Assembly: GCF_000187935.1 (NCBI RefSeq)
Contig: NZ_AEUT02000001.1
Coordinates: forward strand, 496,001 to 560,000
DNA: 64,000 nt
Origin: Streptococcus parauberis NCFD 2020
Lineage (GTDB): Bacteria; Bacillota; Bacilli; Lactobacillales; Streptococcaceae
Direction: 5' to 3'
Shown here: in pieces, positions 1-54,199 of the stretch
Layout of the letters: every line of letters begins with the position of its first letter
Position numbering within the stretch: position 1 is the stretch's first letter
The notes under the pieces: generated by a model
Databases searched by the model: none
Seen by the model: the letters and a program-made list of their open reading frames with translations, nothing else
What the model was told of the DNA's origin: nothing
Translations under genes and position numbers: made by a program

Positions 1-726
1 ATAACCAGTTTCACGGTCAAATATATGATGATAATCTTTGTCGTTGACTGTTAAGTGACGTTCGTAAACACCTGATGTCACAACTGATTGATTCTCAATT
101 TTGACTATGCCTAGATTAACACCTCGTTTTTTACCAGGATTTTGAATTCCAATATAGAAACGACCATCGGGTCTGTTTTTATTTTTACCATGAACTAAGA
201 CATTTCCACCTAGATTTAATAAGGCAGAATAAATGCCATCCTCAATTAGAAAATTCATAATTTTATCAGCTATATAACCCTTGGCTAAAGCTCCTAAGTC
301 AATTTTCATTCCTTCTTTAGTAAGAAAAACAGACTTAGTTTCAGGAAATAGCTGGATATTATTTGGATTAGTAAGTGCTAGGGCCTCTTGGATTTTATCA
401 TCTTCAGGTAAATTAGCATCGGAAAAACCAATTCGCCATGTTTGCACTAGTGGACCGATGGCAATATTGAGATTATTAGAATCGCCAAAACTGTTTTCTT
501 TTCCAATTTCAATTAGTTCATAGAGATTGGGATGGACAGAAACAGGTTCTTTACCGGCCGCATGATTAATTGCCATTAACTCCGAATCATCATCATTGGC
601 ACTAAAACGATTTTTGTAGGTCTCTAATAATTGACAGACAGTGACCATTTGTTGGTCAGCGTTTTGAGAATTAATTTCTATATCAATGATGGTTCCCATC
701 ATACGTAATTTTTCTTTGGCAATCAT
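1..726 (-). CDS. apbE: FAD:protein FMN transferase (ApbE), 3' end cut by window edge
   Basis: Translating the minus strand from the ATG at 726 gives 242 open residues running off the left edge. ApbE proteins transfer FMN from FAD onto a Ser/Thr of FMN-binding-domain proteins. Family motifs seen: DLGALAKG at residues 143-150, NLGGNVLVHG at 171-180, and HHIFDRETG at 233-241, matching the H-x-I-x-D-x-x-TG metal/flavin motif. There is no signal peptide or lipobox, so it is probably cytosolic, unlike lipoprotein ApbEs used in extracellular electron transfer. An AAAGGA-type ribosome binding site lies just upstream of the ATG. Typical length is about 300-350 residues, so roughly the last quarter is missing. 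A plausible client protein is at 51.8-54.2 kb. Confidence 0.9.
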   Translation of the reverse strand, partial: MIAKEKLRMMGTIIDIEINSQNADQQMVTVCQLLETYKNRFSANDDDSELMAINHAAGKEPVSVHPNLYELIEIGKENSFGDSNNLNIAIGPLVQTWRIGFSDANLPEDDKIQEALALTNPNNIQLFPETKSVFLTKEGMKIDLGALAKGYIADKIMNFLIEDGIYSALLNLGGNVLVHGKNKNRPDGRFYIGIQNPGKKRGVNLGIVKIENQSVVTSGVYERHLTVNDKDYHHIFDRETGY

Positions 727-46811: not shown

Positions 46812-46843
46812 AAAAGAACCTATTAAAAATAGGTTCTTTTTTT
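46812..46843. terminator. Bidirectional terminator before the RpiR gene
   Basis: AAAAGAACCTATT / AATAGGTTCTTTT with a four-base A loop. Confidence 0.85.
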
Positions 46844-47693
46844 AACGATCATGTTCGAGAGAGGTGGAAAGGTTGATTTTTCGAACATAGTTTCTGAAAT
46901 AATCTTGTTTGAAATAGAGGGCGTAAATTGTATTGAGAATAAAAAGGATTGATTCTTCTGTGGAGAAGTTTCCGATTTTCTTTTGTTTATCTTCTCTGGT
47001 ACAAATAGTAAAGTAAGCATCAGCTTGTTCTTGTAAATAGCGCCCTTTTTCACTGGTTAAACCAATAATATTAACTTTTTGTTGATGTAATTGCTCTAAA
47101 TGGCGTAGAGCATCATTCTTTTTTGATTTACCAGAATAGGAAATAATTAAAGCGACATCATTTTCGGTTAAAGAGTTAGCCATCAAACCAAATTCACTAC
47201 TGCTAGCAATCTCGATACTTTTACCAATAGTTAACATATTACGCTTGAAAAGATGAGCGATATAATCATTAGGACTGAGTCCAAATACAACAACACGTTT
47301 AGCTTTTCTGAGGAAAGTAACGGCTTTATTTAATTCATTCTCAGACAACTTATCAGCTGTATCTTGAATACTTTCTTTCTCAATTGTAGCTATTTTTTGA
47401 ATGATATCACTGGCGCTGTCTTCTTCATTAAAAGGAAGGCTGTGATCAATATCAGAATAGTGGGTCTCAGAATAATAGCGTTCAGATAAAAGAACTGGTA
47501 AAAAATCTGTCCAACCTTTATAACCCAGAGCTTGCGCAAAACGCACAATACTAGACTTAGAACTAAAGCTAATTCGAGCAATATCATCAAGGGATAGTTG
47601 TTCAATAGTACCAAGGTTATCAAGAATCGATTGAGCTATTGTAGCTTTAGACGATTTCCCCATCTGCGCCAATTCATTTATATCATCCAGCAT
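46842..47693 (-). CDS. RpiR/MurR family regulator with SIS domain
   Basis: A 283-residue regulator. The N-terminal HTH_6 domain (1-77) includes LGTIEQLSLDDIARISFSSKSSIVRFAQALGYKGWTDFLPVL. The SIS phosphosugar-binding domain (about 105-235) has VVVFGLSPNDYIAHLFKRNML and DVALIISYSGKSKKNDALRHLEQ. The ATG at 47693 is preferred over a GTG at 47714, which has no ribosome binding site. It is divergent from a GH1 phospho-beta-glucosidase gene, its likely target; the effector would be a phosphorylated beta-glucoside. Confidence 0.9.
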   Translation of the reverse strand: MLDDINELAQMGKSSKATIAQSILDNLGTIEQLSLDDIARISFSSKSSIVRFAQALGYKGWTDFLPVLLSERYYSETHYSDIDHSLPFNEEDSASDIIQKIATIEKESIQDTADKLSENELNKAVTFLRKAKRVVVFGLSPNDYIAHLFKRNMLTIGKSIEIASSSEFGLMANSLTENDVALIISYSGKSKKNDALRHLEQLHQQKVNIIGLTSEKGRYLQEQADAYFTICTREDKQKKIGNFSTEESILFILNTIYALYFKQDYFRNYVRKINLSTSLEHDR

Positions 47694-47737
47694 AAGTTTA
47701 TTTATCCTTTTCACTCTATTTCATTTTTGAAGAGAAG

Positions 47738-49274
<1,537 letters not shown>

Positions 49275-49343
49275 TAAAATAGAGTTCTAACAAGGTTGAA
49301 ACTGTTTATAATTCGTCAGATATTTTTACTATTATACAAATAA

Positions 49344-49376
49344 TGGTATAATTGCAATAGTTAGTATACTAACTAT
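49344..49376 (+). promoter_or_regulatory. Extended -10 and 20-bp palindromic operator of the MDR oxidoreductase gene
   Basis: TGGTATAAT at 49344-49352 is followed by the perfect palindrome ATAGTTAGTATACTAACTAT at 49357-49376, placed where a repressor would block initiation. Confidence 0.75.
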
Positions 49377-49436
49377 AAGTCTAATATAATTTTTAATAAA
49401 ACAAGTTAAAGCTTACACTAATAGGGGAGAGAAACT

Positions 49437-50441
49437 ATGAAAGCAGCACAATTAATATCCTATACAAAGCAAGCTTCCTATTTACAAATTAATACTGTTG
49501 AGAAACCGACAATTCGTGATTATGAGGTCTTAGTAAAAGTCGCCTATGCAGGAATAAATCCTGTTGATAATATGATTGCAGAAGGAAAAGTGAAAATTAT
49601 TTTGCCCTACAAACTTCCAATTATTGCTGGTCAGGAATTATCTGGTGTAGTTGAAGCAGTTGGCGAAAAAGTCAAACAATTTGCAGTTGGTGATAAGGTT
49701 TATACTAAAACACCTCTTGATCAAGCAGGTGCTTTCGCTGAATTTATTGCTTTGCCAGAGATTGATTTAGCACTTATTCCTGAGAATTTAACCTTGGAAG
49801 AAGCTGCAACTATACCTTTAACTGGCCTTACAGCTATGCAAGCCTTCGAAAAATTACGGGTTGAAAAAGATAAAACAATTTTTATTTCAGGCGCAAGTGG
49901 CAGTTTTGGTGCGCTAGCCATTCCCCTAGCTAAAGCAAAGGGTTTAACAGTTATTGCCAGTGGTAATGGTAAAAGTGAAGAACGCTTGAAATCACTTGGC
50001 TTGGACTGCTTTATTGACTATAAAAAAGAAGACTATAGTAAAGTGGTCTCCAATGTCGATTATGTTATTGATACCTTAGGTGGAAAAGAGATTGAAAAAC
50101 AATTTTCGATTTTAAAACGAGGCGGAAAGTTGGTCAGTCTAAAAGGGCTACCTAATCGAGAATTTGCCAAAAGTATGTTGCATTCACCAATTAAACGATT
50201 TTTGTTTACATTAACCGGTCTACACTTAAATCGCCAAGCTGCAAAAAATAATCAATCCTATGATTTTATCTTTGTTGGCGCAAATGGAAAGCAATTAAAG
50301 GAAATTACTGATATCTATCAAGAAAAGCCCTTCCCAATTTCTCTAGATCAAGTTTATGATTTTGAAGATATTAATTTAGCGCTTGAGAAAGTAAAAAAAG
50401 GCTATTCTGTCGGAAAAACACTAGTCAAAATATCCTCTTAA
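49437..50441 (+). CDS. Zinc-independent MDR (quinone oxidoreductase-like) NADP-dependent oxidoreductase
   Basis: A 334-residue medium-chain dehydrogenase/reductase. The GroES-like domain (YEVLVKVAYAGINPVDNMIAEG ... AGQELSGVVEAVGEKVKQFAVGDKVY) and the nucleotide-binding AASG-type motif TIFISGASGSFGALAIPLAKAKG are clear; catalytic zinc ligands of alcohol dehydrogenases are absent, as in quinone oxidoreductases. Likely reduces quinones or enals. The palindrome next to its -10 suggests control by a redox- or electrophile-sensing repressor that is not encoded beside it. Confidence 0.88.
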   Translation: MKAAQLISYTKQASYLQINTVEKPTIRDYEVLVKVAYAGINPVDNMIAEGKVKIILPYKLPIIAGQELSGVVEAVGEKVKQFAVGDKVYTKTPLDQAGAFAEFIALPEIDLALIPENLTLEEAATIPLTGLTAMQAFEKLRVEKDKTIFISGASGSFGALAIPLAKAKGLTVIASGNGKSEERLKSLGLDCFIDYKKEDYSKVVSNVDYVIDTLGGKEIEKQFSILKRGGKLVSLKGLPNREFAKSMLHSPIKRFLFTLTGLHLNRQAAKNNQSYDFIFVGANGKQLKEITDIYQEKPFPISLDQVYDFEDINLALEKVKKGYSVGKTLVKISS

Positions 50442-50467
50442 GCTCTCTGATTGGAGAGCTTTTTTCA
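50441..50467 (+). terminator. Terminator after the MDR gene
   Basis: AGCTCTC / GAGAGCT with a six-base loop, then TTTTTT; it begins at the stop codon. Confidence 0.85.
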
Positions 50468-50506
50468 TCTTTAAAAAAACGGTAGATAATAATCTTTTTC
50501 TTTGCT

Positions 50507-50568
50507 TTGTAAACGGTTTTATGTTATTACTATAGTATAGATTAATTAATTAGAATTAGTCTAATTAA
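50507..50568 (+). promoter_or_regulatory. Cupin gene promoter with cre-like site and dyad
   Basis: TTGTAA (50507-50512) and TATAGT (50531-50536) form the promoter. TGTAAACGGTTTTA at 50509-50522 matches cre at 13 of 14 positions over the -35. TTAATTAG (50546-50553) and CTAATTAA (50561-50568) form an 8-bp dyad downstream. Confidence 0.55.
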
Positions 50569-50587
50569 GAACAAGGAGGACTTTCTA

Positions 50588-51010
50588 ATGACATTCGATT
50601 ATAAAGATCATGGCAAAGAAAAATTTATCGTTAACATTGAGGATTATACCAAAGAAAACGAGAATTACCGTACAACAATTTGGACTGGTGAAAAACTTCA
50701 GGTTACATTAATGGCTATTGAACCCGGTGACGATATTGGTTTAGAAGTACACATGGGTATCGATCAATTCCTCCGTATCGAAGAAGGTAAAGGTTTATGC
50801 CAAATGGGAGATGACGAAGATAATCTTACATTTGAACAAGAAGTTTCAGATGATGATGTAATTTTAGTACCTGCTGATACTTGGCATAATGTAACCAATA
50901 TTGGTGACAAACCTCTGAAAATTTACTCAATTTATGCAGGTCCTGATCATGTCCCTGGTACAGTACATAAAACGCATGAGGAAGCTAAAAATGATCCTAA
51001 TGAAGACTAA
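50588..51010 (+). CDS. Cupin domain protein
   Basis: A 140-residue single-domain cupin. The two cupin motifs are G-x5-H-x-H-like PGDDIGLEVHMGIDQFLRIEEGKG (about 56-79) and PADTWHNVTNIGDKPLKIYSIY (about 99-120), giving candidate metal-binding His residues. The N-terminus has no export signal. Role unknown; single cupins may be sugar-binding, isomerase-like or sensor proteins. AAGGAGGAC is a strong ribosome binding site. Monocistronic. Confidence 0.85.
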   Translation: MTFDYKDHGKEKFIVNIEDYTKENENYRTTIWTGEKLQVTLMAIEPGDDIGLEVHMGIDQFLRIEEGKGLCQMGDDEDNLTFEQEVSDDDVILVPADTWHNVTNIGDKPLKIYSIYAGPDHVPGTVHKTHEEAKNDPNED

Positions 51011-51169: not shown

Positions 51170-51772
51170 ATGAAAATAGTTGCAGTTGTCGGAACTAATT
51201 CTGACCGTTCTACCAATCGGAAATTGCTTTATTTTATGAAGGAGCATTTCAAGGATAAAGCAGATATTAGTATTTTGGAAATCAAAGATTTACCAGCTTT
51301 TAATGAGCCAGAGGATAAATTGGCACCAACAGCTGTAGCTCAGTACTCTGAAAAAATTAGTCAAGCAGATGCTGTTATTATTGCAACTCCCGAGTATAAT
51401 CATACTATTCCAGCACCTTTATCTAGTGCCTTAGAATGGATTGCTTATACTAGTCGTGCTTTAATTAATAAACCGACGATGATTGTGGGAGCGTCTTTAG
51501 GTTCTTTAGGGTCATCACGCGCGCAAGCTCACTTGCGACAAATCTTAAATGCTCCAGAATTGAAAGCTCGTTTAATGCCAGGGACAGAATTCTTGCTTGG
51601 CCATTCTGAACAAGCTTTTGATGCGGAAAACAAGTTGTTGTATCCTGAAAAAGTTACTGAACTTGAAGATGTCTTTGCAGAATTTCTTGAGTTCTCTCAA
51701 CTGGTCATTCAATTAGTCAATCAATCAGATACTGAACGAAAAAGACAGTTTGCTTGGGAAAAAGTAGAATAG
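51170..51772 (+). CDS. NADPH-dependent FMN reductase family protein
   Basis: A 200-residue flavodoxin-fold reductase. KIVAVVGTNSDRSTNRKLLYFM is the FMN-phosphate-binding loop region, ATPEYNHTIPAPLSSALEWI is the family signature (PEYNxxxPxxLKNAIDW), and GASLGSLGSSRAQAHLRQIL follows. It probably reduces FMN or quinone-like acceptors with NAD(P)H. It is 15 bases upstream of a large fusion protein whose N-terminal domain is its paralogue, so the pair is probably one operon. Confidence 0.9.
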   Translation: MKIVAVVGTNSDRSTNRKLLYFMKEHFKDKADISILEIKDLPAFNEPEDKLAPTAVAQYSEKISQADAVIIATPEYNHTIPAPLSSALEWIAYTSRALINKPTMIVGASLGSLGSSRAQAHLRQILNAPELKARLMPGTEFLLGHSEQAFDAENKLLYPEKVTELEDVFAEFLEFSQLVIQLVNQSDTERKRQFAWEKVE

Positions 51773-51787
51773 AGAGGTGATATCATT

Positions 51788-54199
51788 ATGAAATTTGTTG
51801 GAATTATTGGGACTAATGCAAAAACATCCTATAATCGTCAGTTATTAACTTTCATGAAAAAACATTTTGAGGACCAAGCATCAATTGAATTGCTTGAAAT
51901 TGATCAAGTCCCGATGTTTAATGAAAGTGATGATCAAACCCATAGTCAAATTATTCAAGATATTACTAAAACAATTGAATCTTCTGATGGAGTTATTATT
52001 GCAACCCCAGAACATAATCATTCTATCCCATCCTCTTTAAATAGCTTAATTGAATGGCTATCATTTAATGTTCATCCATTAGCTGGTAAGCCGGTTATGA
52101 TTGTTGGAGCTTCATATAGTGAGCAAGGCTCTTCACGCGCACAATTACATCTTCGTCAGATTTTAGATGCTCCAGGTGTAAATGCAACTGTTATGCCAGG
52201 CAGTGAATTCTTATTAGGTAATGTTCATCAAGCTTTTGATCAAGATGGCAATATTAAGGATAGCAAAACAGTTGATTTCTTAGAATCTTGTTTCTACCGT
52301 TTTGCTCGTTTTGCAACCATCGCAAATCAACTTAACCAAGATGAAGAAATATTCTACGAACCGGGTACCTATCAAGTGACAACTGTTGGCCATAATGGTG
52401 ACCTGCCAATGGCAGTTACTTTCTCACAAGATCGGATTGAAAAAATTGATATTGATTCTTCAGGTGAAACTGGTGGTATAGCTGATGTGGTCTTCACACG
52501 TATCCCAAATGAAATCATTGAAGGTCAAACCTTAAATGTTGATTCAGTTTCAGGAGCCTCAGTAACATCTAATGGTGTACTAGATGGTGTATCTAAAGCC
52601 ATTAAAAAAGCAGGAGCAAACCCAGCGGCACTAAGAAGTCGTGCTAAAGCACCGTCAGCATTAGACCATGAAGATAAAATCTATCAAGCTGATTTGGTTA
52701 TCGTCGGTGGTGGTGGTGCTGGATTAGCAGCAGCTGCACGAGCCTTGCAAGAGGATAAGAAAGTTATTGTGGTTGAAAAATTCCCATCAGTAGGTGGGAA
52801 TACCGTTCGTGCAGGTGGGCCTATGAATGCACCTGATCCGGATTGGCAAAAAACTTTTGCAGCCAATCCTGGCGAAGCACATAATCTAGAAGGTTTAATG
52901 AATATGGATGATAGTCAAATAGATGCTGAATATTTAGACGATTTCCATGCTTTGAAACTTGAATTGGAAGATTATCTAAAACAACCAACTTATTTATTTG
53001 ATTCTAAACTGTTGTACCGGATTCAAACTTATATCGGTGGTAAACGTAAAGACTTACAAGGTAATGAAATTCATGGCGACTATAATCTCGTAAAAATCAT
53101 GACAGAACGTGCTTTAGAGTCTGTTCGTTGGTTAGAGGATGTTGGAGTAGAGTTTGACCACAGTGATGTCACAATGCCAGTTGGTGCACTTTGGCGTCGT
53201 GGGCACAAACCATTTATGCCAATGGGGGTTGCTTTCATTTCAGTTCTTAATAAATATGTCCTTGAACATGGTGGAATAATCTTAACAGATAGTCCAGTTA
53301 AAGAATTAATTGTTGAGGCAGGTCGAGTAAAGGGCGTAATAGCAAGAGGACGTAATGGTCAAACACTAACAATTAATGCCAATGCTGTTATTCTTGCTTC
53401 CGGTGGCTTTGGGGCAAATACCAAGATGTTGCAACAATATAACACCTACTGGACAGAAATTGCTGACGATATCAAGACTTCAAATACACCAGCTGTGACA
53501 GGTGATGGTATCCTATTAGGTCAAAGTGTAGATGCTGATTTAGTTGGAATGGGCTTCACCCAAATGATGCCAGTTTCAGATCCAGAAACAGGTGCATTAT
53601 TCTCAGGTCTACAAGTACCACCAGCTAACTTCATTATGGTCAATACTGAAGGCAAACGTTTTGTTAATGAGTATGGCAGTCGTGACCAGCTCTCACAAGC
53701 AGCAATTGATAATGGTGGTTTATTCTACCTCATTGCTGATGATCTGATTAAAGAAACCGCCTATAACACTAGTCAAGAAAAAATAGATGCTCAGGTAAAA
53801 GCAGGTACACTTTACAGAGATGATACTATTGAAGGACTAGCTGTTCAACTTGGTATGGAACCATCAGTTCTTGCTGAAACAATTGCTAACTATAACAAAT
53901 ATGCCGATCAAGGATTTGACCCAGAGTTCAATAAGGGTGCCTTTGATTTGAAAGTTGTGAAAGCTCCATTTTATGCAACTCCTCGTAAACCAGCAGTTCA
54001 CCATACTATGGGTGGTATAAAAATTGATACACAAGCCCATGTTCTTGATACTAAGGGACAAATTATCAATGGTCTCTACGCAGCCGGAGAAGTTGCAGGT
54101 GGCTTACATGCCGGTAACCGATTAGGAGGTAACTCACTAACTGATATCTTTACCTTTGGTCGAATTGCGACTGAAACAGCAATCAAAGAACATTGCTAA
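51788..54199 (+). CDS. Three-domain flavoprotein: FMN reductase, FMN-binding domain and fumarate-reductase-like flavoprotein
   Basis: An 803-residue fusion with no signal peptide. Residues 1-180 are an NADPH-dependent FMN reductase domain ([19 protein letters not shown]). Residues about 187-275 are an FMN_bind domain with the ApbE target pattern D252-SVSGA-S258, predicting covalent FMN on Ser258. Residues about 300-803 are a FAD-dependent fumarate reductase/flavocytochrome c module ([14 protein letters not shown] at 304-317; [10 protein letters not shown] and [21 protein letters not shown] near the C-terminus). It should pass electrons from NAD(P)H through FMN to FAD and reduce fumarate or a related enoate in the cytosol. 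Similar covalent-FMN cytosolic reductases are known in Klebsiella and Vibrio. Confidence 0.9.

Follow-up and report, generated by a model that had tools for sequence, protein, structure and literature searches.

A candidate NADH-dependent aryl-acrylate reductase predicted to carry covalent FMN in Streptococcus parauberis

The reductase gene pair and its neighbourhood

The window analysed here, a stretch of 64,000 nucleotides from the genome of Streptococcus parauberis NCFD 2020, contains two contiguous forward-strand genes for flavin-domain proteins, 15 bases apart, and at its first letters part of a gene for an ApbE flavin transferase:

1..726, minus strand: ApbE flavin transferase, first 242 of its 311 codons (N-terminal part), the gene continuing beyond the window edge
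51170..51772, plus strand: 200-residue FMN_red protein, candidate small (A) partner (ORF, Pfam)
51788..54199, plus strand: 803-residue reductase, candidate large (B) subunit with the order FMN_red, FMN_bind, FAD_binding_2 (ORF, Pfam)
51788..52228, plus strand: FMN_red domain, residues 1-147, where electrons from NAD(P)H are predicted to enter (Pfam)
52388..52606, plus strand: FMN_bind domain, residues 201-273 (Pfam)
52541..52561, plus strand: flavinylation motif DSVSGAS, residues 252-258, with FMN predicted on Ser258
52691..54139, plus strand: FAD module, residues 302-784, of the flavocytochrome c / UrdA / fumarate reductase superfamily

The larger protein scored 120 bits for FMN_red, 53 bits for FMN_bind and 238 bits for FAD_binding_2, the latter over two stretches (best at residues 429-784), while other FAD Rossmann models started at residue 302. 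TIGR01813 (flavocytochrome c) was the one NCBIfam model above its cut-off among the 25 listed. No signal peptide or lipobox was seen by eye at the N-termini of either the fusion or ApbE. The open reading frame, the Pfam domains and the motif at residues 252-258 thus bear out the initial annotation, in which the gene had been described as a soluble-looking fusion of these three domains carrying an ApbE motif. Among the best 80 of 98 relatives, the closest named ones belong to S. penaeicida and S. bovimastitidis (83%), and a search of plasmids returned partial relatives only, the best of them 63% identical over residues 180-801. At the Rfam gathering score the window had no match, and a promoter and terminator scan gave counts near those of shuffles.

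The small FMN_red gene at 51170-51772 is a partner that the initial annotation had missed. Neighbourhoods were counted in the window and in 79 of the 80 relatives fetched (the best 80 of 98), after dropping L083 (33% identity), and a small FMN_red gene lies upstream of the reductase in 68 of these 80 loci, window included. The 12 loci in which it is missing include four fusions to other N-terminal parts (L065, L066, L068, L069) and five forms without an FMN_red domain (L071-L075). Outside the window, a LysR-type gene was found near the reductase in 58 of the 79 relatives, and apbE within about 3 kb of it in 56.

In the window, no relative of the LysR protein of locus L010 is encoded within 6 kb of the pair, and no apbE stands beside it; a LysR gene in this position is a regulatory feature, not a catalytic one. 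Likewise, neither an apbE gene within about 6 kb nor a LysR gene was found in seven other streptococcal loci (L004-L008, L043, L076), several of which are ended by contig edges, with less than 6 kb of upstream sequence in L006, L007 and L008 and almost nothing downstream in L043. Upstream of the pair, positions 46842-51010 hold genes for an RpiR regulator, a 6-phospho-beta-glucosidase, a zinc alcohol dehydrogenase and a cupin, and genes of the RpiR, glucosidase and cupin types are found around the pair in S. penaeicida and S. bovimastitidis as well; these neighbours might hint at the use of aryl-glucosides.

Predicted flavinylation of Ser258

The ApbE protein scored 240 bits against PF02424 and was the sole match in the single-contig genome of 2,164,480 bases, so that the expected apbE is indeed present in the window, although just codons 1-242 of its 311 lie there, and the suggested search for further copies returned none. 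Its presence in the window stands, but the distance of 51 kb, which had been taken to tie it to the reductase, means little as evidence, because apbE was not found near the pair in the seven other streptococcal loci, several of them cut short, because ApbE occurs in 192 of 197 sampled genomes of the genus and FMN_bind in only 84, and because further clients are predicted for the same ApbE. It is thus the gene neighbourhoods of the relatives that tie ApbE to this enzyme.

Flavinylation of the 803-residue protein is nevertheless a well-supported prediction, since apbE lies close to the reductase gene in most relatives and serine is the family norm at the acceptor position. The ApbE motif has been described as D-x-x-[S/T]-G-A-[S/T], attachment of FMN to serine has been reported, and replacement of the threonine by serine lowered flavinylation by 10 to 55% (PMC12052999). 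In 203 aligned rows, mutually related and including some near-copies, the acceptor was Ser in 197 and Thr in five, with a gap in one, so the serine that had been singled out as worth noting is not unusual. These rows comprise 83 locus or window proteins and 120 listed homologues, and the second FMN_bind protein of this genome is counted in them twice (L002, L085).

Other predicted ApbE clients in the genome

When the whole genome was searched with codon degeneracy for D-x-x-[ST]-G-A-[ST], 12 DNA matches were obtained, four of which are in frame within an open reading frame of at least 40 residues. They fall in three proteins, all with flavin domains, and a chance occurrence of the motif was rejected on this ground. 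In addition to DSVSGAS of the 803-residue reductase, they are DAVSGAS in a fusion of OYE, FMN_bind and FAD domains, and DASSGAS together with DANSGAS in the tail of an FMN_red-PAS_10 protein:

G000:C1 about 1059055-1066275 (locus L085 9055-16275): 968-residue OYE-FMN_bind-FAD protein and its gene cluster
G000:C1:2156398-2157657 (locus L111 8398-9657), minus strand: 419-residue FMN_red-PAS_10 protein with two tail motifs

A single ApbE is thus predicted to serve three soluble-looking clients with four flavinylation sites. The search for other FMN_bind proteins proposed in the initial annotation yielded the 968-residue fusion; a second FMN_bind protein does exist, as had been considered, but it is not the only candidate client, given that both carry the motif.

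The cluster of the 968-residue protein also holds genes for a type I dehydroquinase (DHquinase I), a DcuC/CitMHS-like permease, an alpha/beta hydrolase and a shikimate dehydrogenase, and the alignment shows the protein to be without the carboxylate-binding Arg/His residues. In Lactiplantibacillus plajomi (L153), an FMN_bind-FAD-FMN_red protein has a similar site, and apbE, DHquinase I and shikimate dehydrogenase genes are its neighbours. The protein is perhaps a flavinylated reductase acting in the quinate/shikimate route.

The gene of the 419-residue protein is preceded by a small FMN_red gene. FRedA/B of L. johnsonii is a heterodimer with two FMN sites that makes H2O2, and fusions were noted in other Lactobacillaceae (PMC4500961), which makes the tail-motif protein a relative of a published kind. 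Lactococcus FMN_red proteins with flavinylated C-terminal tails (PMC11334425) resemble the 803-residue reductase in that FMN_red is linked to the motif, but in them the motif is part of an unstructured tail, and the available account describes neither an FMN_bind nor an FAD module; the closer match to them in this genome is the 419-residue protein.

Among 54 FMN_red domains placed in a tree, the small partners of the reductase and tail-motif systems form one group and the large-subunit domains of both systems another (100/100), while monophyly of the reductase-type large domains was unsupported (19/0). Four long-branch rows were left out of this tree, in which long branches still meet. The topology suggests a single ancestral FMN_red pair, the large subunit of which would later have gained different output modules.

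ApbE and its clients across the genus

All 84 FMN_bind-positive genomes of the 197-genome sample have ApbE, but its far wider occurrence means that the presence of ApbE alone says little about the 803-residue enzyme. With a frame length of 803-829 codons as a proxy, a fusion of this type was counted in 39 of the 197 genomes. The PAS-tail part gave a strong match (E 1e-47 or better) in 162, the genomes counted as being without it comprising 25 with E-values of 6e-11 to 6e-4 and 10 without a match. ApbE was found in 186 of the 187 genomes with either client and in six of the 10 with neither, one of these six having it split (Fisher p 2e-5, a value that ignores shared ancestry).

The single client-bearing genome without an ApbE match (G160) has a disrupted FMN_red-PAS-tail gene, with a stop and a frame change between two pieces (contig C10, 26828-28058), a disruption that is real unless it stems from a sequencing error. 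In a genome without any predicted client (G154), apbE lies in two separated pieces (C1 1141158-1143429), which fits co-loss. Five genomes (G044, G087, G155, G158, G159) have an intact-looking apbE and neither an FMN_bind nor a strong tail-type match, and no motif-bearing protein was found in their apbE neighbourhoods. In 20 hand-chosen apbE neighbourhoods, 15 of them from genomes without FMN_bind, a small FMN_red gene and a tail protein stand beside apbE in 18. The motif was checked in the tail proteins of these 18 relatives and in that of S. parauberis; all 18 relatives have it, 16 of them twice.

Active site of the FAD module

The catalytic and substrate-side residues of the FAD module were located by alignment to UrdA and Fcc3:

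53567..53614, plus strand: Met594 (position of Fcc3 His365 / UrdA Tyr373) to Gln609 (position of UrdA Asp388), non-fumarate signature
53681..53683, plus strand: Arg632, predicted proton donor (Fcc3 Arg402 / UrdA Arg411)
54002..54004, plus strand: His739, predicted carboxylate ligand (UrdA His520)
54119..54121, plus strand: Arg778, predicted carboxylate ligand (UrdA Arg560)

The roles of the equivalent residues as proton donor and carboxylate ligands have been described for UrdA (PMC7921117). Arg632, His739 and Arg778, each kept in 200 of the 203 rows, match Fcc3 Arg402, His504 and Arg544, but are common to UrdA and hence not specific to fumarate reductases. Fcc3 His365, Glu378 and Arg381 are all replaced in the 803-residue protein, and the UrdA Phe391 lid position is Pro. 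The signature is nearly constant in the family, with Met at the position of Met594 in 199 of the 203 rows and Gln at that of Gln609 in 195.

As a control, the OYE-FMN_bind-FAD protein of Klebsiella indica retains the fumarate-type His/Glu/Arg set, and it aligned to Fcc3 with 403 bits against 221 for the 803-residue protein. The K. indica genome carries this fumarate-type protein together with a Met-signature relative, as would be expected if the two do different jobs. With the fumarate residues replaced here and intact in the control, fumarate is an unlikely acceptor, and the substrate is more likely to be a monocarboxylate whose far end is less polar.

The probable electron acceptor

Taken together, the two genes at 51170-51772 and 51788-54199 probably encode the subunits of a soluble NADH-dependent aryl-acrylate reductase of the HcrAB/CrdAB type, for which hydroxycinnamates or cinnamate would be the likeliest acceptors. 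FMN in the paired FMN_red domains would accept electrons from NADH and pass them to the ApbE-attached FMN on Ser258, from which they would reach FAD; a hydride from FAD would then be transferred to the double bond of the substrate, with Arg632 giving the proton and Arg778 and His739 gripping the carboxylate. Our best guess for its physiology is an electron sink that would regenerate NAD+. Aryl- or heteroaryl-acrylates are the likeliest acceptor class, so the initial hedge that the acceptor might be acrylate- or urocanate-like was a fair one.

The Vibrio ruber DSM 16370 homologue (L045), 65% identical over residues 1-801, shares the FMN_red, FMN_bind and FAD_binding_2 domains, the partner gene, the Met/Gln signature and the Ser acceptor. 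We take it to be the published NADH:cinnamate reductase CrdAB. The gene order there is apbE, lysR (both on the minus strand), small FMN_red and large fusion, with the neighbours confirmed by profiles; apbE and the LysR gene thus adjoin the pair, unlike in S. parauberis, where apbE is 51 kb away.

A second likeness, drawn by comparing descriptions, is to the hydroxycinnamate reductase of Lactiplantibacillus plantarum, in which HcrB has a COG0431 (FMN reductase) domain and adjoins HcrA, also of COG0431 (PMC10295242), just as a small FMN_red protein is here encoded contiguously with a large one. HcrB uses NADH and FMN and reduces p-coumaric, caffeic, ferulic and related acids, HcrA alone is inactive, and cinnamic acid was an inducer in L. 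plantarum but no substrate of HcrB (PMC10295242). HcrAB is under a LysR-type regulator whose gene lies downstream of hcrB (PMC10295242), in contrast to the LysR gene upstream in the relatives of the present pair and its absence beside the pair in the window. The available part of that description makes no mention of covalent FMN (PMC10295242), and the sequence of the L. plantarum enzyme was not found among the matches listed. Most likely, the kind of enzyme has already been described and the 803-residue protein is its streptococcal member.

Hydroxycinnamates are favoured over urocanate, but urocanate, or both, is a serious alternative. An enzyme of the same architecture and flavinylation might mainly be an NADH-dependent urocanate reductase that turns histidine-derived urocanate into imidazole propionate, a reading we consider rather unlikely on balance. 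According to a review, bacteria that carry a 'Y'- or 'M'-type UrdA homologue, with Streptococcus mutans listed as one of them, produce imidazole propionate from urocanate (PMC11872695), and the 803-residue protein has Met594 at the UrdA Tyr373 position. Moreover, reads without His373 were counted as true UrdA in a cohort study (PMC7676231), and the UrdA Asp388 position, Gln609 here, may vary among Asp, Asn and Gln in gut UrdAs (PMC7921117). The names given to relatives in their source records are often 'urocanate reductase'. Genes for hutH, urocanase, formiminotransferase and an amidohydrolase are grouped in this genome, so urocanate could be made inside the cell, but the three-domain urocanase would compete for it, and the neighbours of the pair in the window include no hut gene. 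UrdA of Shewanella oneidensis shares the FAD/clamp module, the covalent-FMN domain and the equivalents of Arg411, His520 and Arg560, yet differs in Tyr373, Asp388 and the lid residue Phe391 (Met, Gln and Pro here), and the present protein has an FMN_red domain fused on. Hydroxycinnamates are the substrates of HcrB, whose make-up as described is similar (PMC10295242).

It is very unlikely that the main reaction is with oxygen, the protein being an H2O2-forming NADH oxidase or flavin reductase like FRedA/B of L. johnsonii and its FAD module secondary. In the tail-motif system of the same genome, the FMN_red pair is homologous to this N-terminal domain and small partner (54% and 53%), and FRedA/B is likewise a two-FMN heterodimer with H2O2 as product (PMC4500961), but the catalytic Arg and both carboxylate ligands of the FAD module are almost invariant in the aligned rows, which would be unexpected if that module were idle. 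The organism itself had been assumed to lack respiration, a statement that is doubtful and should be dropped because of a gene for cytochrome bd subunit I that matches over its whole length and with which S. parauberis may respire oxygen when cofactors are supplied:

G000:C1:1837607-1838947: cydA, cytochrome bd subunit I gene, full-length match

Least probable of all is the soluble NADH:fumarate reductase originally proposed. In its favour, the solved structures closest in sequence are those of UrdA (228 bits) and, at 227 bits or below, flavocytochrome c fumarate reductases, the proton-donor Arg and carboxylate His/Arg are retained, and the soluble fumarate reductase of Klebsiella pneumoniae is flavinylated by a cytoplasmic ApbE (PMC12052999). 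The proposal is nevertheless rejected on the active-site residues, by the Met/Gln signature in place of His365, Glu378 and Arg381 and by the K. indica control, which keeps the fumarate set, aligns far better to Fcc3 and coexists with a Met-signature relative. The Klebsiella type does share FMN_bind and an FAD module, and apbE adjoins the K. indica homologue, but it has OYE instead of FMN_red at the N-terminus, the full fumarate-type site and a Thr acceptor. The observation from which the initial annotation set out is therefore sound and its reading partly supported, with fumarate as the weak point.

Implications for Met-signature reductases and for ApbE in streptococci

The aryl-acrylate reading corrects a common annotation, that of fumarate or urocanate reductase, and proposes, for a streptococcus, a route of electrons from NADH to an acceptor other than fumarate that can be put to the test; in addition, one ApbE would serve four predicted flavinylation sites, spread over three soluble-looking proteins. 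Tentatively, and as a possibility rather than an expectation, we suggest a joint reading in which reductases with the Met/Gln signature, found in streptococci, clostridia, paenibacilli and vibrios and frequently labelled 'urocanate reductase', would be soluble enzymes acting mainly on aryl-acrylates (cinnamate), so that surveys equating non-His373 with UrdA would overcount, and in which the streptococcal ApbE is shared with the two-site FMN_red-PAS tail protein, it being this protein, and not the FMN_bind enzymes, that would keep apbE in almost the whole genus. Two points deserve to be followed, the sharing of ApbE and the ambiguity of the name 'M-type UrdA', and if the Met-signature group does consist of cinnamate reductases, gene-based estimates of imidazole propionate would need revision.
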